DNA from: Ignavibacteria bacterium
Lineage (GTDB): Bacteria > Bacteroidota > Ignavibacteria > Ignavibacteriales > Melioribacteraceae
Direction: 5' to 3'
DNA: 41,817 bases
Assembly (NCBI GenBank): GCA_012719345.1
Contig: JAAYAN010000058.1
Location: forward strand, 1-41,817
Under the pieces are notes generated by a model, which did not search any database, had not been told where the DNA came from, and was given only the letters and a program-made list of their open reading frames with translations. Below are positions 11,250 through 25,632 of the stretch, piece after piece. A program made the translations under genes and the position numbers. The stretch's first letter is position 1, and every line of letters begins with the position of its first letter.

Positions 11250-11280
11250 AAAAAAAACCCGCACTTAGCGGGATTTTTTT
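11250..11280 (-). terminator. Intrinsic terminator of the ilv-leu-cimA operon
   Basis: The GC stem CCCGC/GCGGG (11258-11262 with 11268-11272) has a 5-nt loop, flanked by A-runs and T-runs on both sides. In the minus orientation it follows the cimA stop (11286) directly, with a long U-run. It is symmetric enough to work in both directions. Confidence 0.85.
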
Positions 11281-11285
11281 TAATT

Positions 11286-12866
11286 TTATTTGAGTTGTTT
11301 TTGCACGTATAGAGATTTGTAAAGTTTAAAATTGATGCTGTCTGTTAATGCCTGAAGCGACGCGTGAATTATGTTTTCGGAAACGCCGACTGTACCCCAC
11401 GTAGAGTTGTTATCACCCGATTCCACAAGAACTCTTACCTTTGCATCAGTTCCTTCTTCTCCGTCAAGAACACGCACTTTGTAATCTACAAGCTGCACTT
11501 CGGCAATTTCAGGATAAAACCGCGATATTGCTTTCCGCAGAGCGTGATCCAATGCGGCAACAGGACCGTTGCCATCTGCGGCGGTATGCTCTATAACATT
11601 TTCAACTTTAACCTTTAAAACAGCTTCAGAATAATCGTTCTTGTTTTCATCGAACATCACATTTACTTTTGCGTAATCAACTGTAAAGAATGGTTTATAA
11701 TCATTCAATTCGCGTCTTAACAAAAGTTCAAATGATGCTTCTGCTCCGTCAAACTGAAATCCTTGGTACTCAAGAGTTTTAAGATACTGAACAAAATTCT
11801 TACTGAATTCTTTTTCATCAGGTAAATCTATACCTAATTCTTTTGCTTTGTAACGGATATTGCTCTGTCCGGAAAGGTCCGATACCAGAACTCGCTGTTC
11901 GTTTCCAACAGTTTTCGGGTCAATATGCTCATACATCCGGCTATCCTTAAGAACCGAACTTACGTGAATGCCTCCTTTATGTGCAAACGCCGATTTCCCA
12001 ACAAAAGGCGATCTTTTGTTTGGAATCAGGTTCATAACTTCATCCACATAATAGGAAAAAGAAGTAAGGTATTTCAAATCAATCAGACTTTTAGTTTCCA
12101 ATTTCATTTTTAAAATTAGATTTGGAATTATCTGAATAAGATTTGCATTTCCGCATCTTTCACCAAGTCCGTTTATTGTTCCCTGAACATGAAACGCACC
12201 GGCCGAAACAGCACTTAAAGAATTTGCTGTTCCAAGTCCTCCGTCGTTATGAGCGTGAATTCCAATAGGAGTGGAAATATGTCTTTTTACATCTGTAACA
12301 ATATTAAATATTTCCTGAGGAAGAGAGCCTCCGTTTGTATCGCATAATGTTATAACATCAGCTCCGGCTTGTTCTGCCGCTTTTAGCATTTTTATTGCAA
12401 ATTCGGAATTGTCTTTATAGCCGTCAAAATAATGCTCGGCGTCAAAAATAACTCTTCTGCCGTAACTCCTTACATATTCAACCGATTTATAAATCAGCTC
12501 TTCATTTTGTTCATCAGTTAATCCGAGGCTTTTTTGCGAATGAAATCTCCAGGTTTTTCCAAAAATAGTTACAGCGGGAGTTTCCGATTTTATAAGCATA
12601 TTAAGATTATGATCTTCCTTAACTTTATCGGGAAACCTTGCTGTTGAACCAAAAGCGCAAACCTGAATATTTTTAAGATCGAGCAGTTTAACTTTCTGAA
12701 AATACTCTTCGTCTTTCGGATTGCTGCCAGGCCATCCTCCTTCAATAACGTCAATTCCAAACTCATCAAGCTTTTGCGTTATAAGAAGTTTATCCTGAAT
12801 TGAAAGATTTACTCCTTCACCCTGCGTTCCGTCTCGTAAAGTTGTATCAAATATTTCAACTGACAT
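11286..12866 (-). CDS. cimA: (R)-citramalate synthase
   Basis: The 526-residue protein condenses pyruvate and acetyl-CoA to (R)-citramalate, the first step of the threonine-independent route to 2-oxobutyrate and isoleucine. DRE-TIM motifs are visible: FDTTLRDGTQGEGV (6-19), HAHND metal ligands (204-208), GLGERCGN, and AFAHKGGIH. A C-terminal LeuA-type regulatory domain follows (about 390-510, ending in the allosteric-fold pattern). The sequence is clearly distinct from LeuA in this operon: it has GTQGEG instead of GEQSPG and HAHND instead of HCHND, which fits the CimA (TIGR00977) branch. It is the last gene of the ilv-leu operon, so its product can be fed directly to LeuC/LeuD and LeuB. An alternative name in old annotations is 2-isopropylmalate/homocitrate synthase family. 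Confidence 0.9.
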   Translation of the reverse strand: MSVEIFDTTLRDGTQGEGVNLSIQDKLLITQKLDEFGIDVIEGGWPGSNPKDEEYFQKVKLLDLKNIQVCAFGSTARFPDKVKEDHNLNMLIKSETPAVTIFGKTWRFHSQKSLGLTDEQNEELIYKSVEYVRSYGRRVIFDAEHYFDGYKDNSEFAIKMLKAAEQAGADVITLCDTNGGSLPQEIFNIVTDVKRHISTPIGIHAHNDGGLGTANSLSAVSAGAFHVQGTINGLGERCGNANLIQIIPNLILKMKLETKSLIDLKYLTSFSYYVDEVMNLIPNKRSPFVGKSAFAHKGGIHVSSVLKDSRMYEHIDPKTVGNEQRVLVSDLSGQSNIRYKAKELGIDLPDEKEFSKNFVQYLKTLEYQGFQFDGAEASFELLLRRELNDYKPFFTVDYAKVNVMFDENKNDYSEAVLKVKVENVIEHTAADGNGPVAALDHALRKAISRFYPEIAEVQLVDYKVRVLDGEEGTDAKVRVLVESGDNNSTWGTVGVSENIIHASLQALTDSINFKLYKSLYVQKQLK

Positions 12867-12898
12867 ATTAAACCTTATTAATCCTTTTCTAAAGAATT

Positions 12899-13459
12899 TT
12901 ATGCAATCATTGAATTTTTACGGGCATATTCAAATATTCCTCCCGCTTCAACAATAGGAAGAACATCACCAAGAGGTTTTAATTCGTAAGTTTTGCCGTC
13001 CGATAAATTACTTAAAGTATTTTCTTTAAGATTTATTTCAAGATTGTCGCCTGTTTTAATTTTATCATTCATTTTTCCAAATGATTCGTATGGAACAACA
13101 AATCCCCCGTCAACCGAGTTCCGGTAAAAAATTCTTGCATACGATTCTGCAATTATTACTTTTGCCCCTGCTACCTGCAATGCAAATGGAGCATGCTCGC
13201 GGGATGAACCGCAGCCGAAGTTAGATCCTCCGATAATAATCTGAAATTCAGATTCGCAGTTATCTCCTTTAACAAAAGGAATATTTCCGCCTGGCAGACC
13301 TGATTGCGGCAAAGGGACTGCAGATAATGCATAATGTCCGTATTTTTTCTTTTCTTCCGGATCAGTTAAACTGTATACAAGATGTTCTGCAGGAATTATC
13401 TGATCGGTATCGATATTATTTCCTAAAACAAACGCTTTTCCTTTAATTATATTTTCCAT
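12899..13459 (-). CDS. leuD: 3-isopropylmalate dehydratase small subunit
   Basis: ATG 13459 is chosen, with AGAGAG upstream, giving 186 residues; the frame also opens at 13486 but that would overlap leuC. The product starts IIKGKAFVLGNNIDTDQIIPAEHLVY and contains the swivelling-domain motif FGCGSSREHAPFAL, diagnostic of LeuD. With LeuC it isomerises 2-isopropylmalate to 3-isopropylmalate. By the same chemistry it converts citramalate to 3-methylmalate for isoleucine. It is 16 nt downstream of leuC. Confidence 0.95.
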   Translation of the reverse strand: MENIIKGKAFVLGNNIDTDQIIPAEHLVYSLTDPEEKKKYGHYALSAVPLPQSGLPGGNIPFVKGDNCESEFQIIIGGSNFGCGSSREHAPFALQVAGAKVIIAESYARIFYRNSVDGGFVVPYESFGKMNDKIKTGDNLEINLKENTLSNLSDGKTYELKPLGDVLPIVEAGGIFEYARKNSMIA

Positions 13460-13475
13460 TTTAATCTCTCTTATT

Positions 13476-14771
13476 TTACAAAACATCTCGTGGATCGGTA
13501 ATTACGCCTGTAAGCGCCGAAGAAGCTACTGTTAAAGGTGATGCCAAATAGACTTCCGATTTCTTGCTTCCCATTCTGCCAGGAAAATTTCTATTTGTTG
13601 TAGAAATTACAACGTCTTTGTCAACTGATCTGCCGAAAGTATCGGAAGGTCCGCCAAGACAAGCGGCGCAAGATGATTCGCCTATTTCACAGCCGGCATT
13701 TTTGAATATTTCTTTCAGGGAAATTCCGTTTATTGTTTCTTCTTCCATTTGTTTAGCAACAGCAGTACTTCCCGGAACAATAAATGTAGGCACTTTTACT
13801 TCTTTTCCTAAAAGCAGTTTTGCTGCAAATCTGAAATCGGTAATTTTACCTCCTGTACAGGAACCAATATAGCATTTGGTAAGTTTTGTTCCTTCAACAC
13901 TTCTAACAGTTCCTCTGTTATCGGGACTGTGCGGTTTGGCTACAACAGGTTCGAGTTTGGTAACATCATAAACATATTTGCTTTGATATTTTGCATCTTC
14001 GTCGCTTCGGTAAATTTCGTAAGGGGCGTTAGTTCTTTCTTTAACAAAAGCTTCAGTCTTTGCATCCGCTTCAATAATTCCGTTCATACCGCCGCATTCA
14101 ATAGCCATATTTGTTAATGTCATTCTTTCGTACATTTCCAAATCAAAAACCGCTTCGCCGTCAAATTCCATTGCCCGGTAAGTGGCTCCGTCTGTTGTAA
14201 TATCGCCTAAAATCTGCAAGATTAAATCTTTTGCAGTCAGATATTCGGGCAGTTTTCCGTTAAAAGTAAATTTCATCGATTCAGGTACTTTTTCCCAAAT
14301 TTTTCCTGTTCCAAGAATAAATGCCGCATCAGTATTTCCTACACCTGTAGAAAACATACCGAATGCGCCTGAAGTACAAGTGTGAGAATCAGTTCCGAAA
14401 AGTACTTTTCCGGGAAGATTATAACCTTCCTCGGCAAGAGCAATGTGGCATACTCCTTTATATCTTGGAGTTCCTACATCGTAATAATTCGGCAAATCGT
14501 AATCGGCTGCAAACTGACGAAGTATTTCAACATTACGGTTAGCATATTTATCTGCTGTAAATATGTAGTGATCGGGAAAGATAACAAGTTTATTCTTATC
14601 CCAGACTTTTGCCTCTTTTCCAAATTCATTTTTCCATATTTGAATTGTAGGCGGTCCGCAAACATCGTGCGTCATCAACACATCCACGTTCAGCCAGATA
14701 TTTTCACCGGGAGATACTCTGTCCCTGCCGCTGGCATTAGCTAATATTTTTTCTGTTATTGTCATTCCCAT
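13476..14771 (-). CDS. leuC: 3-isopropylmalate dehydratase large subunit
   Basis: The 431-residue aconitase-fold subunit is of the shorter LeuC2/homoaconitase-like type. Three cysteines that hold the [4Fe-4S] cluster are visible: Cys305 (YIGSCTGG) and Cys368/Cys371 (SSCAACLGG). Other family motifs are FGTDSHTCTSGAFG and the NRNFPGRMG end. The first ATG (14771) has an AAGGAA site 8 nt upstream; a second ATG lies two codons later. It works with LeuD, encoded next, and probably serves both the leucine and the citramalate-isoleucine routes. The gene sits 12 nt after leuA. Confidence 0.95.
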   Translation of the reverse strand: MGMTITEKILANASGRDRVSPGENIWLNVDVLMTHDVCGPPTIQIWKNEFGKEAKVWDKNKLVIFPDHYIFTADKYANRNVEILRQFAADYDLPNYYDVGTPRYKGVCHIALAEEGYNLPGKVLFGTDSHTCTSGAFGMFSTGVGNTDAAFILGTGKIWEKVPESMKFTFNGKLPEYLTAKDLILQILGDITTDGATYRAMEFDGEAVFDLEMYERMTLTNMAIECGGMNGIIEADAKTEAFVKERTNAPYEIYRSDEDAKYQSKYVYDVTKLEPVVAKPHSPDNRGTVRSVEGTKLTKCYIGSCTGGKITDFRFAAKLLLGKEVKVPTFIVPGSTAVAKQMEEETINGISLKEIFKNAGCEIGESSCAACLGGPSDTFGRSVDKDVVISTTNRNFPGRMGSKKSEVYLASPLTVASSALTGVITDPRDVL

Positions 14772-14783
14772 TTTATAATTTCC

Positions 14784-16367
14784 TTAAATTGCGTCTATCT
14801 TTGCTTTTTCGTGATTATTTATTTCATTTGTTTTCTGAAACTTAATCAGATAATTTATTGCCTGTAAAAATGCTTTACCGCTGGCTTCAATTATATCAGT
14901 TGAAACACCTCTTCCGGTAAATGACTTTTCTCCGCTTCGTATACGAACCAGAGCTTCACCCATTGCCTGTCTGCCAGAAGTAACAGAACGCACCTGATAT
15001 GATTCAACATTTGATTTGATATCGAGAGCTCTTTCTATTGCATTGAATAAAGCATCAACAGGACCGTCTCCGGTTGCCGATTCCATCAAAGATTCCTCTC
15101 CTGCAGTTATTTTAACAGTAGCAGTTGGAATAGCACTTGTTCCTGCACTTACCTGAATGTTGCTAAGTTCATAAAAATCGCTTTCTTTGTTTATCTCATC
15201 GCCCATTAAGGTTCGTAAGTCGTCATCAAATACTTCTTTTTTCTTATCGGCAAGTTCGGTAAACATCTTATAAACTCTGTCAAGTTCATCTCCGGTTAAT
15301 TTATAACCTAATTCATCAAGACGGGCTTTTAAACCATGTCTTCCCGAATGTCTGCCTAAAACTATTTTTGTTTTTCTAACGCCTACGGTTTCAGGGGTCA
15401 TAATTTCGTATGTATTTCTGTTTTTAAGCATACCGTCCTGATGAATTCCCGATTCGTGGGCAAAAGCATTTTCGCCTACAATAGCTTTATTTGGCTGAAC
15501 AATCATTCCGGTAAACCCCGAAACCATACGGCTTGTGTTATAAATTTCTTCGGTTTTAATATTTGTATAATAACTGAAATAATCTTTACGCACTTTTAAA
15601 GCCATAACAATTTCTTCGAGTGATGCATTTCCGGCACGTTCGCCTATTCCATTAATTGTGCATTCAACCTGTCTTGCTCCGTTTTCAATTGCTGAAATTG
15701 AATTAGCTACACCAAGCCCTAAATCGTTATGACAATGCACGCTTATAATGGCCTTATCAATATTGCTTACTCTTTTTCTTAATTCGGCAATCATATTCCC
15801 AAATTCACTGGGTAAAGTATACCCTGTTGTATCGGGAATATTAATTGTAAGAGCACCAGCAGATATTGCTGCTTCAACTACCTCTGCAAGATAACCGATT
15901 TCAGTTCTTCCGGCATCTTCTGCAGAAAATTCAATATCGTTGCAGAATGTTTTTGCATAAGCTACTGCATCGTAACTCATCTGAACAACGGTTTTACGTT
16001 TTTCCTGAAGCGTTTTTCCGTATTTGTCTTCTCCGAATTTTCCTAATATGTGAAAGTCTGAAGTGCTTGCGAAAGTGTGAATTCTTGGTTTTGCAGAATG
16101 TTTGATTGCATCGTAGGCCGTTTTTATATCAATTTCTTTAGCCCGGGCTAAAGCTGCCACTGTCATTCCAACTTCTCCTGCCACTCGTTCAACAGCTTCA
16201 AACTGTGTAGGAGAAGAAACCGGAAATCCGGCTTCAATAATATCCACGCCTAATCTTTCAAGCTGACGTGCTATTTCTACTTTTTCATAAACATTTAAAG
16301 ATGCGCCCGGAGATTGTTCCCCGTCTCTTAAAGTTGTATCGAAAACAAATATTCTGTTATCTGACAT
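14784..16367 (-). CDS. leuA: 2-isopropylmalate synthase
   Basis: The 527-residue protein condenses acetyl-CoA with 2-oxoisovalerate, the first committed step to leucine. Motifs: FDTTLRDGEQSPGASL (9-24), substrate and metal residues HCHNDLGLG (211-219), GIGERAGNASLEE, and AFAHESGIHQDG. The C-terminal leucine-binding regulatory domain (about 395-510) contains TGDGPVDA and GRGVSTDIIEASG. It is expected to be feedback-inhibited by leucine. Normal length for the family. It follows leuB in the operon with an AAGGAA site. The tail of about 15 residues (NEINNHEKAK) is polar and not conserved. Confidence 0.95.
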   Translation of the reverse strand: MSDNRIFVFDTTLRDGEQSPGASLNVYEKVEIARQLERLGVDIIEAGFPVSSPTQFEAVERVAGEVGMTVAALARAKEIDIKTAYDAIKHSAKPRIHTFASTSDFHILGKFGEDKYGKTLQEKRKTVVQMSYDAVAYAKTFCNDIEFSAEDAGRTEIGYLAEVVEAAISAGALTINIPDTTGYTLPSEFGNMIAELRKRVSNIDKAIISVHCHNDLGLGVANSISAIENGARQVECTINGIGERAGNASLEEIVMALKVRKDYFSYYTNIKTEEIYNTSRMVSGFTGMIVQPNKAIVGENAFAHESGIHQDGMLKNRNTYEIMTPETVGVRKTKIVLGRHSGRHGLKARLDELGYKLTGDELDRVYKMFTELADKKKEVFDDDLRTLMGDEINKESDFYELSNIQVSAGTSAIPTATVKITAGEESLMESATGDGPVDALFNAIERALDIKSNVESYQVRSVTSGRQAMGEALVRIRSGEKSFTGRGVSTDIIEASGKAFLQAINYLIKFQKTNEINNHEKAKIDAI

Positions 16368-16406
16368 TTTTTTAGTTCCTTATTTTAACCTGTGAATAAA
16401 TTATTC

Positions 16407-17507
16407 TCACAGGGTGAACACTCCAAGTCCCTGTTCGTGATAAATTTCATCAAAGCTTTTAATTATTTCTACAGTCATTTTTTCTGTAGAAATTTCTTTA
16501 CCGCCTTCAGTCATAATATCTTTTGTGCGGTATCCAGCTTTAAGTGTTCTTTCAATTGCCTGATAAATTATTTCGGCAGCTTTAGGAACTTGTAGAGTAT
16601 GTTCAAATAACATTGCCACCGATGCAATAGTTGCTATCGGGTTAGCTATGCCTTTACCGGCAATGTCGGGAGCGCTGCCATGTACCGGTTCGTATAAAGC
16701 GTATTTCGAACCAAGACTTGCAGAAGGCAGCATTCCAAGACTTCCGGTAATCATTCCGGCAATGTCACTCAAAATATCTCCAAAAAGATTAGATGTAACA
16801 ATAATATCAAATTGTTTAGGATTACGGACAATCTGCATTGCTGCATTGTCTACATACATATCAATTAATTCAACGTCCTCGAAATCCTTATGAACTTCGT
16901 GAACTATTTTTCTCCAAAATTGCGAAACTTCAAGTACATTTGCTTTATCAATTGAATGTACTTTTCCGGCTCTGTTACGCGCTGTTTCAAAAGCTTTACG
17001 CGCAATCCGCTCAACTTCTTCTTTATAATAAATCATTGTGTTAAAACCTTTTTCTTCGTCATATCCGCGGGGCGTTCCAAAATAAATTCCGCCTGTAAGT
17101 TCCCGGAAGACAATAAAATCAGTTCCTTCCACAACTTCTCGCTTTAGAGATGATGCGTCGGCAAATGCACTGTAAATTTTTGCAGGACGTATGTTTGCCC
17201 AAAGTCCCAGAGATTTTCTCAGTTGAAGAAGAGCAGCTTCGGGTTTAAGATTATGTTCAAGGTTTTCCCATTTATATCCGCCAACAGCGCCAAGGATAAC
17301 TGCATCCGAATCTAAGCATGTTTTTAATGTATCCTCTGTTAACGGAGTTCCGAATTCCTCGTATGATGCTCCGCCTATGAGTTTTTCATTATACTTAATT
17401 TCTATTTTAAATTTTTCGGCAACAGTATTTAATACTTTTACGCCGGCTTTAACAACCTCCGGGCCAATGCCATCGCCCGGAAGTAATGTAATTTTATAAG
17501 ATACCAA
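16407..17507 (-). CDS. leuB: 3-isopropylmalate dehydrogenase
   Basis: The start is TTG at 17507: an AAGAGG site lies 7-8 nt upstream, the residues after it (SYKITLLPGDGIGPEV) are the normal N-terminus, and no ATG lies near. The 366-residue enzyme oxidises and decarboxylates 3-isopropylmalate with NAD+. It shows LRKSLGLWANIRPAK (substrate arginines), RELTGGIYFG, the metal-binding Asp region NLFGDILSDIAGM, and the NAD-binding EPVHGSAPDIAGKGIANP. It may also act on erythro-3-methylmalate in the citramalate route. It is 11 nt after ilvC. Confidence 0.95.
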   Translation of the reverse strand: MVSYKITLLPGDGIGPEVVKAGVKVLNTVAEKFKIEIKYNEKLIGGASYEEFGTPLTEDTLKTCLDSDAVILGAVGGYKWENLEHNLKPEAALLQLRKSLGLWANIRPAKIYSAFADASSLKREVVEGTDFIVFRELTGGIYFGTPRGYDEEKGFNTMIYYKEEVERIARKAFETARNRAGKVHSIDKANVLEVSQFWRKIVHEVHKDFEDVELIDMYVDNAAMQIVRNPKQFDIIVTSNLFGDILSDIAGMITGSLGMLPSASLGSKYALYEPVHGSAPDIAGKGIANPIATIASVAMLFEHTLQVPKAAEIIYQAIERTLKAGYRTKDIMTEGGKEISTEKMTVEIIKSFDEIYHEQGLGVFTL

Positions 17508-17517
17508 TTTATTCCTC

Positions 17518-18513
17518 TTATTTTTTCTTAATTATATACGACATCATATCTCTTAGTTTTTTTCCAACTACTTCAATAGGGTGTTCTGTATTAATTTTTC
17601 TTAATTCTTTAAGATTAGGAGCGCCTTTTGCATTTTCTTCAATCCATTCTTTTGCAAACGAACCATCCTGAACTTCTGTTAAGATTTTTTTCATTTCTTT
17701 TTTGGTTTCAGCTGTAATAACGCGCGGTCCTCTTGTCATTCCTCCGTATTCAGCTGTATCGCTTACCGAATAGTTCATTCTCGATAAACCGCCTTCATAG
17801 AATAAATCCACAATAAGTTTAAGTTCGTGCATACATTCAAAATATGCAAGTTCGTCTGGATAACCGGCTTCAACCAAAGTTTCAAAACCAGCTTTTACCA
17901 AATCGGCAGCTCCTCCGCAAAGAACTGCTTGTTCGCCGAATAAATCTGTTTCGGTTTCATCTTTAAAAGTTGTTTCGATTACACCGGCTTTTGTTCCGCC
18001 AATACCTTTTGCCCAGGAAAGAGCAAGTTCTTTTGTGTTTCCCGAATAATCGTTTTGAATAGCAATTAAGCAAGGAACGCCGTCGCCCTGCTGAAATGTT
18101 CTGCGAACAAGATGTCCAGGGCTTTTAGGAGCAATCATCATAACGTTAACATTGCTTGGAGGTACTATTTGTTTATAATGAATATTAAATCCGTGAGCAA
18201 AAACCAAAGTATCGCCTTCTTTCAAATTCTGGGCAATTGATTTTTCGTATACAATTTTTTGAATCTGATCGGGTAAAAGAATCATTATTACATCAGCTTG
18301 TGCTGAAGCTTCTTCTGCTGTAGTAACTTTAAGTCCTGCAGCTTCTGCAGCTTTCCAAGGTTCGCTTCCGGGAACTTCTGCAACAACAACATTAATTCCG
18401 CTTTCGGTTAAGTTTAAAGCATGTGCATGTCCCTGACTTCCGTAACCGATAATAGCTACTTTTTTCTGTTTTAGTAAATCGAGTGATGCATCGTTGTCAT
18501 AATACACTTTCAT
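17518..18513 (-). CDS. ilvC: Ketol-acid reductoisomerase, class I, possibly NADH-preferring
   Basis: The 331-residue class I (short) KARI converts acetolactate and acetohydroxybutyrate to dihydroxy acids. It has the Rossmann motif GYGSQGHA (residues 23-30), metal-ligand region [13 protein letters not shown], and [14 protein letters not shown] in the knotted C-terminal domain. The cofactor-specificity loop after beta-2 reads [18 protein letters not shown] enzymes usually have Arg and Ser there (like GLREGSKSW) to hold the 2'-phosphate. Here an acidic Glu46 closes the strand, and Val47 and Pro52 replace the usual Arg and Ser. NADH or dual use is inferred. It is the fourth gene of the operon, with AGAGG upstream of the ATG. 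Confidence 0.95.
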
Positions 18514-18531
18514 TGTAATACCTCTATTTGT

Positions 18532-19044
18532 TTAATTGACATTTGAATATTCTTTTTTAATTTTTGTCTGCTCGCCTCTTTTTAAAGCAACTGTTCCAGA
18601 CCGCGCAATTTCAATAATTCCGAAAGGCATAAGAACATTTATTGCGGCATCAATTTTATCAGGCGGACCTGTAACTTCAATCATAATGGATTTGTTATTT
18701 ATATCAACAACACTTCCTCTGAAAATATCGCAAATATCCATTATTTCCGCGCGTTGTCCTTTATGATAACTGACTGTCATAAGTGCCAATTCTCTTTCAA
18801 CTCTTGGCTGGTCTGTAAGATCAACAACTTTTATTGTATCTATAAGTCTGTTTAATTGTTTAACAATCTGTTCAATAATCTGATTGGGTCCGCGAGTTAC
18901 CAAAGTCATTCGCGAAAGATCGCTGATTTCCGTTTCACCAATAGAAATACTGTCTATATTAAATCCTTTACCGCTGAACATTGTTGCTATTCTGTCGAAA
19001 GCTCCAAAACGGTTTTCAACTAAAACTGAAATAGTATGTTTCAT
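18532..19044 (-). CDS. ilvN: Acetolactate synthase small (regulatory) subunit
   Basis: The 170-residue protein has the N-terminal ACT domain (ISVLVENRFGAFDRIATMFSGKGFNIDSISIG, the valine-binding region) and the C-terminal ALS_ss domain (RELALMTVSYHKGQRAEIM). It binds IlvB and gives it feedback sensitivity to valine. Full length for the family. The ATG lies 2 nt after the ilvB stop, a tight coupling typical of the two subunits made in equal amounts. The symbol ilvH would be equally valid. Confidence 0.93.
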   Translation of the reverse strand: MKHTISVLVENRFGAFDRIATMFSGKGFNIDSISIGETEISDLSRMTLVTRGPNQIIEQIVKQLNRLIDTIKVVDLTDQPRVERELALMTVSYHKGQRAEIMDICDIFRGSVVDINNKSIMIEVTGPPDKIDAAINVLMPFGIIEIARSGTVALKRGEQTKIKKEYSNVN

Positions 19045-19046
19045 AA

Positions 19047-20762
19047 TTACACCATCCTTTTAGGATTTAAACGTTTAACCATCATTTCCGACACGCTTGC
19101 TCCGGCTGGAACCATCGGAAAAACCATATCAGCCTTTACAACTCTGAATTCTACTAATGCAGGTCCTTCATTATAAGCAAGTAATTCATCAAGCATTCCG
19201 TCAACATCTTCAGGTTTTTCACATCTCATAGCTTTTAATCCGAAAGCTTCAGCAACTTTAACAAAATCGGGATTGCTGGCACTTAAATCTGTAAAGCTGT
19301 ATTTTTCTGCATGAAACAATTCCTGCCATTGGCGCACCATCCCCAGAAAACTATTATTCATTATAATAAATTTTATAGGAAGATTATAAGCTTTAGCAGT
19401 AATTAATTCCTGAATATTCATTTGAAATCCGCCGTCACCGCTTACGGAAACAACCGGTTTGTCCTTGATTCCAAATGATGCTCCTATTGAGGCAGGAACA
19501 GAAAAACCCATTGTTCCAAGTCCGCCACTGGTAATATGCGAGCGAGGATTATTAAATTTATAATATTGTGCAGCCCACATTTGATGCTGACCAACATCGG
19601 TTACAATTACTGCATTACCGTTAGTTTTATAAGATAATCTTTCATAAACATATTCAGTTCTTAAATTGTCGTCTTTTTCATAATAAAGCGGACATTGTTC
19701 CTGCCATCCTTTTATGTGCGCCCACCATTCATCAAGATTAGGGCGTTTGGTTATTTCGCTGGCTATTTCAGCAATTACGTGTTTTACATCTCCTACAATA
19801 GGTAAATCTACAACAACATTTTTATCAATGGCTGTAGGATCAATGTCTACGTGAATTTTATAAGCATGCTGAGCAAAAGTATCAACTTTTCCGGTAACCC
19901 GATCGTCAAAACGCGCACCCAGAGATACAATTACATCGCAATTATTTACAGCCTGATTAGCCCAAAATGTCCCATGCATTCCAAGCATACCGAGAGATTG
20001 AGGATCTGTTCCCGGAAACGCTCCCAGACCTTGCAGAGTCATTGTTACAGGGAAATTATTTTCTTTAGCCAGCAATCTTAATTCATTTGTACCGCCAGAC
20101 ATAATCACACCGCCGCCTACATATAACAAAGGGCGTTTGGCTTTTTGTAAAACTTCTGCAGCTTTCTTTATTTGGTTGTAATGCCCCTGATATTTAGGTT
20201 TATATCCTCGTATTTCAACTTTTTCAGGATAATCAAATTCACAAACAGAATTAACTACATCTTTCGGCAAATCAACAACTACGGGCCCAGGCCTTCCTGT
20301 TGAGGCAATAAAAAAAGCTTTACGAATTGTTGAAGCCAATTCATTAACATCCCTTACCAAAAAACTATGCTTTGTAATCGGTCTGGTTATACCAACAATA
20401 TCCGCTTCCTGAAATGCATCATTTCCTATAAGATGAGATGCAACCTGACCTGTAAACACAACCAATGGAACTGAATCCATATAAGCATTGGCAATTCCTG
20501 TAACTGTATTAGTAGCTCCTGGACCTGATGTTACTAATACTACTCCTATTTTTCCGGTAGCTTTTGCATAACCTTCAGCTGCGTGAGTAGCACCTTGTTC
20601 GTGACGAACAAGTACATGCTGAAGAAAATCTATGTCGTATAATTTTTCATATATTTTAAGAACAGCTCCTCCGGGAAAACCAAAAATATGTTCAACTCCT
20701 TCTCTTCGCAAACATTCAAAGAAAATATCCGCGCCGCTCATTTTTTTCGATTGATCTTTCAT
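19047..20762 (-). CDS. ilvB: Acetolactate synthase large (catalytic) subunit
   Basis: The 571-residue thiamine-diphosphate enzyme joins two pyruvates, or pyruvate with 2-oxobutyrate. The catalytic Glu55 is in RHEQGATHAAEGYA. The FAD-type middle domain has GARFDDRVTG, and the TPP/Mg motif GDGGFQMN...NN starts near residue 441. Complete length and all three domains. The AAAGGATAAAAA site precedes the ATG. It lies between ilvD and ilvN and is controlled with them by the leader attenuator upstream of ilvD. Confidence 0.95.
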   Translation of the reverse strand: MKDQSKKMSGADIFFECLRREGVEHIFGFPGGAVLKIYEKLYDIDFLQHVLVRHEQGATHAAEGYAKATGKIGVVLVTSGPGATNTVTGIANAYMDSVPLVVFTGQVASHLIGNDAFQEADIVGITRPITKHSFLVRDVNELASTIRKAFFIASTGRPGPVVVDLPKDVVNSVCEFDYPEKVEIRGYKPKYQGHYNQIKKAAEVLQKAKRPLLYVGGGVIMSGGTNELRLLAKENNFPVTMTLQGLGAFPGTDPQSLGMLGMHGTFWANQAVNNCDVIVSLGARFDDRVTGKVDTFAQHAYKIHVDIDPTAIDKNVVVDLPIVGDVKHVIAEIASEITKRPNLDEWWAHIKGWQEQCPLYYEKDDNLRTEYVYERLSYKTNGNAVIVTDVGQHQMWAAQYYKFNNPRSHITSGGLGTMGFSVPASIGASFGIKDKPVVSVSGDGGFQMNIQELITAKAYNLPIKFIIMNNSFLGMVRQWQELFHAEKYSFTDLSASNPDFVKVAEAFGLKAMRCEKPEDVDGMLDELLAYNEGPALVEFRVVKADMVFPMVPAGASVSEMMVKRLNPKRMV

Positions 20763-20792
20763 TTTTTATCCTTTCGATAATTTTGAAAATGT

Positions 20793-22472
20793 TTAGGGCA
20801 TCTTTAATACAGCACCAGTACTTGCAGAAGTTACCATCTGCGAATATCGTGCAAGATATCCTTTTTTAATTTTCGGTTCGAATTTATATATAGCTTCCAA
20901 TCTTGAAGATATTTCTTCGTCACTTAGTTCAACTTCAAGTTTTTTATTCGGAATATCAATACAAATAATATCTCCTTTTTTTAGGGCAGCAATAGGTCCT
21001 CTGTCGGCTGCTTCCGGAGAAACATGTCCAATTGCAGCTCCTCTGGTACCTCCCGAAAACCTTCCGTCAGTAATAAGAGCAACTTTATCACCTAATCCCA
21101 TACCCATAATTGCGCTCGTAGGAGATAACATCTCAGGCATTCCGGGTCCGCCTTTTGGTCCTTCATATCTGATAACAACAACTTCACCTGGAACTACTTC
21201 ATTATTAAGAATTCCTTTAACAGCTTCTTCCTGCGATTCGAATATTCTGGCAGGACCTTTATGAACAAGCATTTTAGGATCGACTGCACCGGTTTTAACA
21301 ACTGAACCGTCTGGAGCAAGATTTCCATATAAAATGGCCAATCCGCCAGTAGCAGAATAAGGATTTTCGATGCTTCTTATAACAGAACTGTCTTTAATTT
21401 CTGACCCTTTTATATTTTCTTTTAATGTCTTTCCAGTTACAGTTATACATTCTGTATTTAATAAGCCTTCAACTTTATTTAATTCATTTAATATTGCCGA
21501 AATTCCTCCTGCTCTATCAACATCTTCCATATGAACAAGATTTGTTGCCGGACTGACTTTGCAGATGTAAGGTGTTTTATTGGAAAGTTTATTTAAAATA
21601 GAAAGGTCAAAATTCAATCCTGCCTCGGTTGCAACTGCAAGCGAATGCAAAACAGTATTTGTGCTTCCGCCCATTGCCATATCAAGTGCAAATGCATTTA
21701 TAAATGATTTTTCGGTAATTATATCCAAGGGTTTAATATCATTTTCTACTAAATACATTATTTGTTCGGCAGCTTTTTTTACTAATTCTTTTCTCTTAGG
21801 TGAGGTTGCTAAAACCGATCCGTTTCCCGGTAAGGCAATTCCTAAAGCCTCCATTAAGCAGTTCATCGAGTTTGCAGTAAACATACCCGAGCATGAACCG
21901 CAAGTTGGGCATCCGTTTTTTTCAAGCTGGAATAATTCTTCATCATTAATTTCACCTGTTTTGTATTTCCCAACACCTTCAAAAACTGAAATCAAATCAA
22001 CTTTTTTTCCGTTTGCCAGTTTACCTGCATTCATTGGTCCTCCGGAAACAAATATTGTTGGAATATTTAACCGGACTGCTGCCATCAACATTCCCGGAAC
22101 AATTTTATCGCAATTTGTAATACATACCATCCCGTCAAGTCTGTGTGCTTCAATAACGGTTTCCACACAGTCTGCAATAAGTTCTCGACTTGCCAAGGAA
22201 TATCTCATTCCTATATGACCCATCGCTATGCCGTCATCAACACCAATAGTATTGAATTCAAAAGGTACACCGCCGGCTTCGCGAACAGCTTCTTTTGCAA
22301 TTTTTCCAAATTCCTGCAAATGAACATGTCCGGGAACAATATCTGTGTATGAATTGCATATCCCAATAAAAGGTTTTTTAAAATCTGCTTCGCTTTTAAT
22401 AACGCCTGTTGCTCTTAATAGACTTCTGTGAGGCGCTTTTTCAAAACCTGTTTTAACTAAATCCGATCTCAA
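20793..22472 (-). CDS. ilvD: Dihydroxy-acid dehydratase
   Basis: The start is TTG at 22472: a strong GGAGG lies 5 nt upstream, and [22 protein letters not shown] is the normal N-terminus. The 559-residue Fe-S enzyme dehydrates dihydroxy acids to 2-oxoisovalerate and 2-oxo-3-methylvalerate. Cluster cysteines are Cys39 (GICNSYTD), Cys121 (TNCDKIVPG) and Cys194 ([13 protein letters not shown]). [10 protein letters not shown] and [13 protein letters not shown] are family signatures. It is the first structural gene of the operon, preceded by a leader of about 270 nt containing the Ile/Leu/Val leader peptide. A TTG start may keep basal translation low. Confidence 0.95.
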
Positions 22473-22518
22473 TTTTTCCTCCGATATTTCAAAATAAATA
22501 AAAACTTTGTATTTCGGT

Positions 22519-22575
22519 CAATCCCGAATTGCTTTTATTTTTTTGTGAATTTTTTGGTAAGCTTTCTCGGGATCG
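22519..22575 (-). promoter_or_regulatory. Attenuator hairpin between the leader peptide and ilvD
   Basis: In the minus-strand RNA, CGATCCCGA (22567-22575) pairs with TCGGGATTG (22519-22527) as a 9-bp stem (one G-U). The core GATCCC (22569-22574) can instead pair with GGGATT (22624-22629) inside the leader reading frame. The two structures are mutually exclusive. The nearest run of five U's is about 13 nt after the stem, so it is not a textbook intrinsic terminator. Control may be by another termination mode or by ilvD ribosome-site access. Confidence 0.55.
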
Positions 22576-22581
22576 ACTTTA

Positions 22582-22731
22582 TCAGCCAATAAGTAGCACA
22601 ACCACTAGTAGGCTAATTATAATAATCCCTAGAATAATGATGTTTTCCGGAAGGTTTGTAACTTCGTCAAAAGCAACAGCTTTAGAAGATGTTGTTTTGA
22701 TTTTGGCGATATTTAATTTTTTATTATTCAT
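22582..22731 (-). CDS. ilvL: Ile/Leu/Val-rich leader peptide of the ilv-leu operon
   Basis: This 49-codon frame was found by reading the ilvD leader. It runs from ATG 22731 to TGA at 22582-22584. Residues 31-49 read IIILGIIIISLLVVVLLIG: 17 of the last 19 codons are Ile, Leu or Val, the three end-products of the operon. This is the classic composition of an attenuation leader peptide, as in E. coli ilv and leu operons. It lies about 10 nt after the predicted transcription start, with no Shine-Dalgarno, and ends 110 nt before ilvD. When charged tRNA is scarce, the ribosome should stall in the codon run and change folding of the downstream RNA. The N-terminal 30 residues are charged and ordinary. 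The gene symbol is by analogy only. A membrane peptide is the alternative, but composition and position argue against it. Confidence 0.85.
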   Translation of the reverse strand: MNNKKLNIAKIKTTSSKAVAFDEVTNLPENIIILGIIIISLLVVVLLIG

Positions 22732-22747
22732 TACGATTTATTTAGGG

Positions 22748-22778
22748 CAAAACTAATGTTTGTTTCCTATTTTGTCAA
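22748..22778 (-). promoter_or_regulatory. Promoter of the ilv-leu operon (Bacteroidota type)
   Basis: On the minus strand TTGACA (TTG at 22776-22778), a 20-nt spacer and TAGTTTTG (22748-22755) match the TTG/TAnnTTTG consensus. The start would be near 22741, about 10 nt before the leader ATG. Confidence 0.7.
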
Positions 22779-22903
22779 GAGATTACTTAATTTTTTTTTA
22801 TTTTTTTTGTTTTTTTTCAATTAATTAAGGATTCTGGTTATAAATTATAAACTATTCTTTATTATCCTTGATTTTTTTTCTGCATCATACTATCATAATT
22901 TTC

Positions 22904-22935
22904 TTGACAATGAAATATATAATTTAGTAGTTTTG
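22904..22935 (+). promoter_or_regulatory. Promoter of the SAM riboswitch-metYX transcript
   Basis: TTGACA (TTG at 22904-22906), a 21-nt spacer and TAGTTTTG (22928-22935), the same -7 box as the divergent ilv promoter. The start would fall near 22942, about 40 nt before the aptamer. The spacer between both promoters (22779-22903) is very T-rich and has no gene. Confidence 0.7.
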
Positions 22936-22983
22936 CATTCAACTTAGTAATAATTGTTCATTAAAAATTTGTCTTGATAATTG

Positions 22984-24494
<1,511 letters not shown>

Positions 24495-24498
24495 AAAT

Positions 24499-25632
24499 AT
24501 GACAGATTGTAAAACTAAATTTGTAAAATTATTCGATTCGAAAAATCCATTTATTCTGGAATCTGGTAAATGCTTGAGTGAAGTGAAAGTAGCTTACCAG
24601 ACTTACGGAAAATTAAATCCGGAAAAAAATAATGCAATAATGATTTGCCATGCATTGACGGGACTTGCTCATGCCTCAGGAATTCAAAAATGTATCGAAA
24701 ATGATAATTCCAGTAATCCCGATTTATTAAAAGAATATTCCACTCAATATTTGAATAAGCCCGGCTGGTGGGATCCTTTAATAGGCAAAGAAAAAGTATT
24801 TGATACCGAGAAATTTTTTATTATTTGTCCCAACATTTTAGGAAGCTGTTACGGTACAACAGGACCGACAAGCATAAATCCCGAAACCGGTAAAAATTAT
24901 GCCGGGGATTTCCCTGTAATTACAGTAAGAGATATGGTAAAACTTCAGAAAAGTCTTGCAGATTTTCTTGAAGTGAAAAAACTTAAGTCAGTTGCTGGAG
25001 GTTCATTAGGCGGAATGCAGGTTCTGGAATGGGCAGTTATGTATCCCGAATACGTTGAATCGATTATTCCAATAGCAACATCGGCAGGTCATTCTCCATG
25101 GGCAATAGGTTTAAATGAAGCTGCCCGTAATGCAATAAAAAACGATCCTGACTGGAATAATGGTTTTTATTCAGAACAACCTCGTAAAGGTTTGGAGCTT
25201 GCCAGGAAAATAGCAATGATAAGCTACAGAAGTTTTGAATCTTTCAAACATAAGTTCGGAAGAAACCGCGTATATGAAAACGATAACTATTCTGCTGAAA
25301 ACATATTCCAAGTTGAAAATTACCTTAATTATCAAGGAAATAAATTGTTAAAACGTTTTGATGCTAATACTTATATTACACTTTCAACTGCAATGGATCT
25401 TCACGATTTATCTGTAAACCGAAAAAGTATCAGCGAAACGCTTTCTTCAATTACTGCGAGAACTTTAGTTATCGGCATAAGCACCGATATCCTCTACCCT
25501 GCTTCGGAACAAAAAGAAATAGCTTCACATATTTCCGGAGCTGAATATGCAGAATTAAATTCTATTTACGGTCACGATGCGTTTTTAATTGAATTTGAAC
25601 AATTAAGCAGGATAATTTCCAAATTTTTATAA
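24499..25632 (+). CDS. metX: Homoserine O-acetyltransferase
   Basis: The 377-residue alpha/beta-hydrolase-fold enzyme acetylates homoserine for methionine synthesis. The nucleophile is Ser169 in GGSLGGMQ, with charge-relay Asp in GISTDILYP and His in YGHDAFL. The family stretch [16 protein letters not shown] and MDLHDLS are present. The substrate (acetyl- rather than succinyl-CoA) is inferred from the MetX family and its pairing with MetY. It starts 4 nt after metY and has no strong ribosome site of its own, so translation is likely coupled. No clear terminator follows; only a weak 7-bp hairpin lies at 25676-25696. Confidence 0.93.

Follow-up and report, generated by a model that had tools for sequence, protein, structure and literature searches.

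The nine-gene ilv-leu-cimA operon in the window (the whole stretch of 41,817 nucleotides that was analysed, from contig JAAYAN010000058.1 of an Ignavibacteria bacterium) is preceded by a short open reading frame (ORF) that ends in a run of isoleucine, leucine and valine codons. Judged by comparison with related genomes, this frame is almost certainly the sensor part of a ribosome-mediated attenuator that responds to charged Ile, Leu and Val tRNAs. We also think it probable, with appreciable reserve, that this sensor is coupled to a translational output, namely control of translation initiation at ilvD; this part of the proposal would follow from statistics over relatives and is not evident in the window's own sequence. 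The short ORF with its end-product codons lies between a promoter and the first gene of the operon, in the following arrangement:

22773..22778, minus strand: TTGACA, -35-like element of the leader promoter (from sequence)
22748..22755, minus strand: TAGTTTTG, presumed Bacteroidota-type -7 element (from sequence)
22731..22582, minus strand: ORF of the leader peptide, 49 amino acids, ATG start, Shine-Dalgarno (SD) site absent
22585..22641, minus strand: Ile/Leu/Val control codons, peptide IIILGIIIISLLVVVLLIG; four of the five Leu codons are CTA, which is rare
22478..22482, minus strand: Shine-Dalgarno sequence GGAGG of ilvD (from sequence)
20793..22472, minus strand: ilvD, first gene of the operon, TTG start at 22472 (family models)
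11286..20762, minus strand: ilvB, ilvN, ilvC, leuB, leuA, leuC, leuD and cimA (family models)
11258..11272, minus strand: intrinsic terminator that closes the operon, CCCGCTAAGTGCGGG and a run of nine T (from sequence)

A preliminary description, made from the letters of this DNA, had pointed out both the operon and the frame. Family models confirm the gene order ilvD-ilvB-ilvN-ilvC-leuB-leuA-leuC-leuD-cimA, with leuC and leuD passing the cut-offs only for broader models of the IPM-dehydratase family. The TTG start that had been assigned to ilvD is matched in relatives by ATG, GTG or TTG at the same place, ahead of conserved RSD residues. The 49-codon frame close to a predicted promoter was recovered at exactly the same coordinates, and its stop, placed about 110 nt before ilvD in that description, is 109 nt away. 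The complete leader sequence is MNNKKLNIAKIKTTSSKAVAFDEVTNLPENIIILGIIIISLLVVVLLIG, with IIILGIIIISLLVVVLLIG as its C-terminal part. Ile, Leu and Val make up 16 of the final 19 residues, the highest-ranking tail among the 455 ORFs of 20-120 amino acids in the window, where the background is 5.0 such residues on average (standard deviation 2.2). The leader frame matched no Pfam or NCBIfam family.

The assignment of TAGTTTTG uses the motif TAnnTTTG, which we take to describe the -7 element of Bacteroidota. A promoter-like pattern lies upstream of 66 of 74 leaders in relatives, and the distance from the end of the TA..TT hexamer to the leader ATG is 18 nt in the window, with a median of 20 nt over 62 relatives; transcription would start about 10-12 nt before the leader ATG. 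The leader start had been described as devoid of a Shine-Dalgarno site, and indeed no SD-like 4-mer precedes it in the window, where ilvD has GGAGG at 22482..22478. The same distribution is seen in relatives with a start downstream of the promoter-like pattern: SD-like 4-mers occur at 2 of 62 leader starts versus 57 of 62 ilvD starts.

Of 58 relatives searched with ilvD, 32 gave a match, as did 76 of the 164 genomes of the order. By their titles as deposited, the relatives with a match are Melioribacteraceae, other Ignavibacteriales, Calditrichota, Marinimicrobia and KSB1, and then Chloroflexota. Removal of 24 sequences whose last 200 nt were identical to another reduced 101 upstream regions to 77 distinct ones of the close type (Ignavibacteriota, Calditrichota, Marinimicrobia, KSB1); left out were L023 (not oriented, on a contig as long as that of L081) and L027-L030 (ilvD 44-48% identical), for which no start was obtained, and L048 (cut at the contig end). 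A leader ORF, defined as a short frame whose last 22 residues include 10 or more Ile/Leu/Val, is found in 74 of the 77. The exceptions are L073, where the count of 10 is reached in a misplaced frame and which was excluded by hand, and L079 and L086, which do not satisfy the definition. The leader stop is 96-146 nt from ilvD in the 74 leaders, except for one at 229 nt. In 58 aligned rows, the tails contain 69% Ile/Leu/Val in frame, versus 33% and 6% in the other two frames. The order of these residues is variable: in 75 close pairs, 163 exchanges stay within Ile, Leu and Val, and 100 lead to a different residue. Recurrent features of many tails are LGI and a terminal Gly; the N-terminal half of the leader is not conserved as judged by eye. 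The alignment of relatives that the preliminary description had proposed thus finds the ORF kept in 74 of 77 distinct upstream regions, together with the position of its stop and the Ile/Leu/Val run, in the correct frame only. On this comparison, the leader frame is not a chance ORF.

The comparison also supports a bias in the choice of codons. CTA accounts for 189 of 448 Leu codons (42%) in the 74 tails versus 155 of 2847 (5.4%) in 60 ilvD genes, and its share is still 40% when the codon within RNA segment 1 (see below) is disregarded. Val codons of the tails are enriched in GTC and GTG, and Ile is mostly encoded by the common ATT. CTA control codons occur also in the leu leader of Escherichia coli. 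In addition to their 69% Ile/Leu/Val, the tails contain 0.6% Phe, 0.1% Met and 1.9% Ala. The leader RNA contains segments that may pair in alternative ways:

22624..22632, minus strand: segment 1, CUAGGGAUU, within the control codons, partner of segment 2 (family-level pairing)
22566..22577, minus strand: segment 2, GUCGAUCCCGAG, 4 nt past the leader stop (pairing, covariation)
22517..22528, minus strand: segment 3, UUCGGGAUUGAC, 12 bp with segment 2 (pairing, covariation)
22513..22528, minus strand: hairpin 3:4, UUCGG-GAUUGA-CCGAA, alternative to 2:3, with no directly adjoining U tract

At the level of the family, the leader ORF is accompanied by mutually exclusive helices 1:2 and 2:3, both supported by the comparison, 1:2 being the weaker. 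The set of 58 rows consists of the 74 leaders minus 11 with no recognisable 2:3 region and 5 with no segment-3 motif; L080 and L081, which have no LGI motif, were further left out of the alignment of 56. In this alignment, 83% of the cells of 2:3 are paired, double changes occur in 9 of 14 pairs (as many in 6 of 500 shuffles), and the covariation score is equalled by none of 500 shuffles. In the unselected set, the helix scores at the 5% level or better against shuffles in 59 of 74 leaders. For 1:2, 89.5% of the cells are paired and the covariation score is likewise equalled by none of 500 shuffles; only 2 of its pairs are double-changed, as many as in 266 of 500 shuffles, and sliding the helix by one column leaves the covariation alike (0.127 vs 0.121) but lowers pairing to 67%. 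The wobble position of the Gly codon in segment 1 forms GC in 44 sequences, AU in 3, UA in 1 and GU in 1, and is unpaired in 7 (n=56); where segment 2 has UUCC, 3 of 4 leaders use GGA, versus 6 of the 52 others (Fisher p 0.011). The synonymous-codon test of 1:2 gave a mean z of -1.10 (n=58) and a combined value of -8.4, with 17 of 58 leaders singly at 5% or better. Synonymous choice in the tails thus favours pairing of segments 1 and 2, and the rare CTA is enriched there. In the window alone, 1:2 is unremarkable (37% of shuffles are as good), and RNAalifold run on the first alignment returned a single 8-bp helix, which is part of 2:3.

Cognate pairs of segments score better than permuted pairs, in tests that ignore phylogeny, with z of -6.6 for 1:2, -11.4 for 2:3 (inflated by the selection of the 58 rows, as are the 2:3 scores in the start and SD pairing tests below), -5.6 for 3:4 and -4.6 for the ilvD start paired with the stretch 5' of segment 3, each reached by none of 2000 permutations. 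The control pairs S1:S3, S1:SD, S1:START, S4:SD and S2:START are null; the controls S1:S4 (z -5.8), S2:SD (-2.0) and LOOP:SD (-1.8) are not, and the S1:S4 signal is probably due to sequence shared by segments 1 and 3. As a local hairpin, 3:4 has a mean z of -1.42, with 36 of 58 rows below -1; when the register is fixed, shuffles do equally well, 276 of 500 reaching its paired cells. In 8 of the 9 Marinimicrobia leaders (L062, L065, L067, L069, L070, L075, L085, L087), the Ile/Leu/Val frame is kept and helix 2:3 is unsupported, so that their RNA switch may differ.

If the peptide itself were the product, rather than the act of decoding it, the frame might encode an independently functioning small membrane protein, and the 19-residue hydrophobic tail could indeed span a membrane. 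General transmembrane helices, however, are not dominated by Ile, Leu and Val to such an extent, and the near-absence of Phe, Met and Ala speaks against a general membrane peptide; the rare Leu codons, the synonymous choice in favour of pairing with segment 2, the unconserved N-terminal half and the null result with Pfam and NCBIfam also argue against this reading, which we consider extremely improbable. A nascent chain acting as an arrest peptide, sensing free amino acid instead of slow decoding, might account for the recurrence of LGI and the final Gly in many tails; but the position of LGI is that of segment 1, where RNA pairing can account for it, and the order of Ile, Leu and Val in the tail varies, which makes such an arrest mechanism very unlikely.

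The enterobacterial type of attenuation invoked in the preliminary description is borne out in its sensor, a leader peptide responding to Ile/Leu/Val that is supported by conservation, rare-codon bias, the synonymous-codon test and covariation; the terminator that should go with it is missing. An intrinsic-terminator-like feature was detected in 3 of 58 ilvD leaders, and at least 5 U within 8 nt past the 3:4 stem in 4 of 58, and on these counts hairpin 3:4 was rejected as an intrinsic terminator with an adjacent U tract. In the window, a U-rich stretch begins 8 nt past the 3:4 stem. In the distant leaders L167 (upstream of ilvD) and L166 (upstream of ilvB, assuming that the first ATG is the start), the hairpin ends 15 and 17 nt before the start codon, respectively, which leaves no room for a U tract. 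The form of a terminator in this genome is displayed by the canonical one at the operon end, 11272..11258. With the expected terminator missing, attenuation of transcription in the classical manner is probably not the output.

The ilvD start and SD, on the other hand, show pairing with leader RNA that is supported at the family level. The loop (5' of segment 3) pairs with the ilvD start with a combined z of -6.3 (57 rows, 23 below -1), and the stretch between segment 4 and the SD (seg4-5) pairs with the SD with a combined z of -5.9 (38 rows, 16 below -1), the matching controls being between -0.7 and +1.4. In the window alone, the start pairing is equalled by 20% of shuffles and the SD pairing by 76%. 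A simple model of accessibility predicts a higher energy for opening the ilvD start in the 'off' state for only 28 of 58 rows (mean 0.5 kcal/mol, p 0.04), and for the window it predicts the opposite direction. Pairing of segment 2 with the ilvD start, suggested by the fold of the window (6% of shuffles as good), is not borne out by the family (z +1.0). Pairing of the leader tail with the ilvD SD is null in the family (S1:SD z -0.23); only the whole-leader fold of the window pairs the CUUCCG codons with the SD region. A weak signal connects the flank of segment 2 with the region 5' of segment 3 (combined z -2.1), and a pseudoknot could allow the start-region helix and 2:3 to exist together. The rarity of terminators (3 of 58), together with the start and SD pairing in the family, is what points to initiation of translation as the likely output.

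The proposed mechanism would operate as follows. Translation of the leader would begin very close to the 5' end of the RNA, without an SD. Scarcity of charged Ile, Leu or Val tRNA would slow the ribosome in the control codons, where it would cover segment 1, so that 2:3 forms; when the supply is good, a ribosome at the stop would cover segment 2, and segment 3 would pair with 4; with no ribosome, 1 would pair with 2 and 3:4 would form as well. In the 3:4 state, the sequence immediately 5' of segment 3 may pair with the ilvD start region, and the RNA between segment 4 and the SD may pair with the SD, whereby ilvD would be poorly translated and the operon kept low. Ribosome stalling, the identity of the 'on' state and the translational rather than transcriptional level of the output are what we infer. 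The leader would work like a leader-peptide attenuator, and its membership in the translational class is plausible.

The same sensor might instead have a transcriptional output, in which 3:4 promotes pausing of RNA polymerase or Rho-dependent or otherwise non-canonical termination, and 2:3 prevents it. The 1-2-3-4 layout is that of classical attenuators, Rho is encoded in the genome, the trp and his leaders of this and related genomes use terminators (see below), and there is the U-rich stretch past the 3:4 stem of the window. Against this stand the low counts of U tracts and terminators in the family, the hairpin that abuts the start codon in L167 and probably in L166, and the family-level support for pairing of the ilvD start and SD; a transcriptional output thus appears unlikely, if worth keeping in mind.

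The genome has leaders of its own that end in terminators. The Trp leader (L173, contig C236, upstream of trpE; relatives L179-L208) is MKMTNKKYNSVNWLWWWRNPNISTQ, contains WLWWW, and its conserved intrinsic terminator is a hairpin with a U run immediately after it; the His leader (L174, contig C269, upstream of hisG; relatives L209-L237) is MLKKVIHLHHHSNLC, contains HLHHH, and here too a U run adjoins the hairpin. Among own and related trpE loci (loci from 30 of the 37 genomes with a match; L197 was not oriented), the Trp leader is present in 29 of 29 oriented loci and the terminator in 28 of 29, and among 29 hisG loci, the His leader and the terminator are present in 28 each, counts that come from a loose leader rule with no chance control and include at least L212 and L231 as apparently spurious. 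A leader-bearing ilvD is found also in 18 genomes of the trp set and 19 of the his set. No Thr/Ile-rich leader was seen ahead of the homoserine dehydrogenase gene.

The ilvD leader of Chloroflexota is different. In the 16 of 36 loci (L089-L124) that match the leader pattern, all within L097-L123, the peptide reads MNxxFSLSLIVVVLAVLIIKDxFxVRMATVRVK. All 16 have a canonical terminator after it, the 5' arm of which looks, by eye, complementary to leader codons GGUUAGGAUGGC. On the Bacteroidota/Ignavibacteriota side, it may well be, though we would not lean either way, that an ancient leader peptide detects a shortage of branched-chain amino acids and sets translation initiation of ilvD (or ilvB, or leuB), with trp and his controlled by terminators.

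A covariance model built from 56 leaders had one match in the own genome at E up to 1, the ilvD leader. With strict filters and a limit of E 0.01, 26 of 395 genomes of the phylum had matches. Six of the matches are outside the order, and family models place them upstream of ilvD (L165, L167) or ilvB (L166, L168, L169, L170). These distant matches are weak (E 1e-4 to 7e-3), but their genomic position is telling, and by eye each locus has a frame that ends rich in Ile/Leu/Val, in L170 on the reverse strand. In genome G002, which has a divergent ilvD (48% identity), the leader with its RNA segments precedes leuB-leuA instead (L164).

No T-box or other Rfam leader was found at the leader (window 20000..25000, E up to 5). 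The leader part of 15 loci matched no Rfam family at E up to 1, a result that need not separate it from the ilvB-II, ilvB-OMG and Leptospira motifs discussed below, which may lie outside Rfam. At gathering scores, the window contains only a SAM riboswitch and two tRNAs, and scans at low thresholds added one chance-level match in the window and one tRNA elsewhere. The SAM riboswitch (RF00162, 84 bits, 22984..23086, plus strand) is in the opposite orientation, before a gene for a PLP enzyme of Cys/Met metabolism; the first ATG of this ORF (23046) is inside the aptamer, so that the true start is probably later.

Known systems resemble the leader in part, as far as the relevant passages of their descriptions go. 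The Listeria Rli60 attenuator, genetically tested, likewise has a leader peptide rich in branched-chain codons, segments 1-4 and an ilvD-led ilv-leu operon; by its description, it differs in a 13-aa peptide, a ribosome binding site (RBS) and a terminator, as opposed to about 50 aa, no RBS, no canonical terminator and another phylum here (PMC5864092). The attenuator of Staphylococcus aureus ilvD has an Ile/Leu-rich short ORF in the same position, but its peptide is of 26 aa, has an RBS and a terminator hairpin 52 nt past the stop, and responds mainly to Leu (PMC5794164). The Corynebacterium ilvB-II, ilvB-OMG (41 members in several phyla) and Leptospira ilvB motifs share an upstream ORF rich in branched-chain codons before ilv genes, ilvB-II differing by its intrinsic terminator (PMC10272879). 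Actinobacteria offer a further comparison in the LEU element and the translational T-boxes of ileS: a leader ORF with control codons is again present, and masking of the SD that follows has been proposed for leuA; in the LEU element, the run of Leu codons itself pairs with the SD (PMC1262725), unlike the leader tail studied here. The LEU element is thus the nearest proposed case of SD sequestration, and Rli60 and the S. aureus attenuator are the nearest tested systems.

In translational attenuators of the ermC type, a stalled ribosome masks segment 1 and frees a downstream start site. Their arrest is induced by a drug, whereas supply of amino acids is proposed here. Such attenuators are mentioned in PMC2965389, a 2010 paper which, in the part concerned, knew leader peptides only from Proteobacteria, Actinobacteria and, newly, Firmicutes. 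Leader-peptide-like short ORFs in Bacteroides 5' UTRs are described in general terms in a passage of PMC7366714, and one in PMC4833913 cites Lopatovskaya et al. 2010 for variants that overlap the ribosome binding site. Among the literature matches listed, we found no description of such a leader in these phyla, with Lopatovskaya et al. 2010 as a place that could hold earlier predictions. Within that listing, the impression that the case is undescribed stands for these phyla; outside enterobacteria, leader-peptide attenuation of ilvD-led operons is known from Listeria (Rli60) and S. aureus.

If true, the proposal would add little-studied phyla to those in which leader peptides control branched-chain amino acids, with an amino-acid-sensing leader peptide that apparently acts without a terminator and starts from a very short 5' end without SD, beside an SD-bearing gene. 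It would also mean one sensing principle with two levels of output within one genome, where the terminator-bearing trp and his leaders may offer a natural contrast for asking why control is exerted at transcription in one case and at translation in another.
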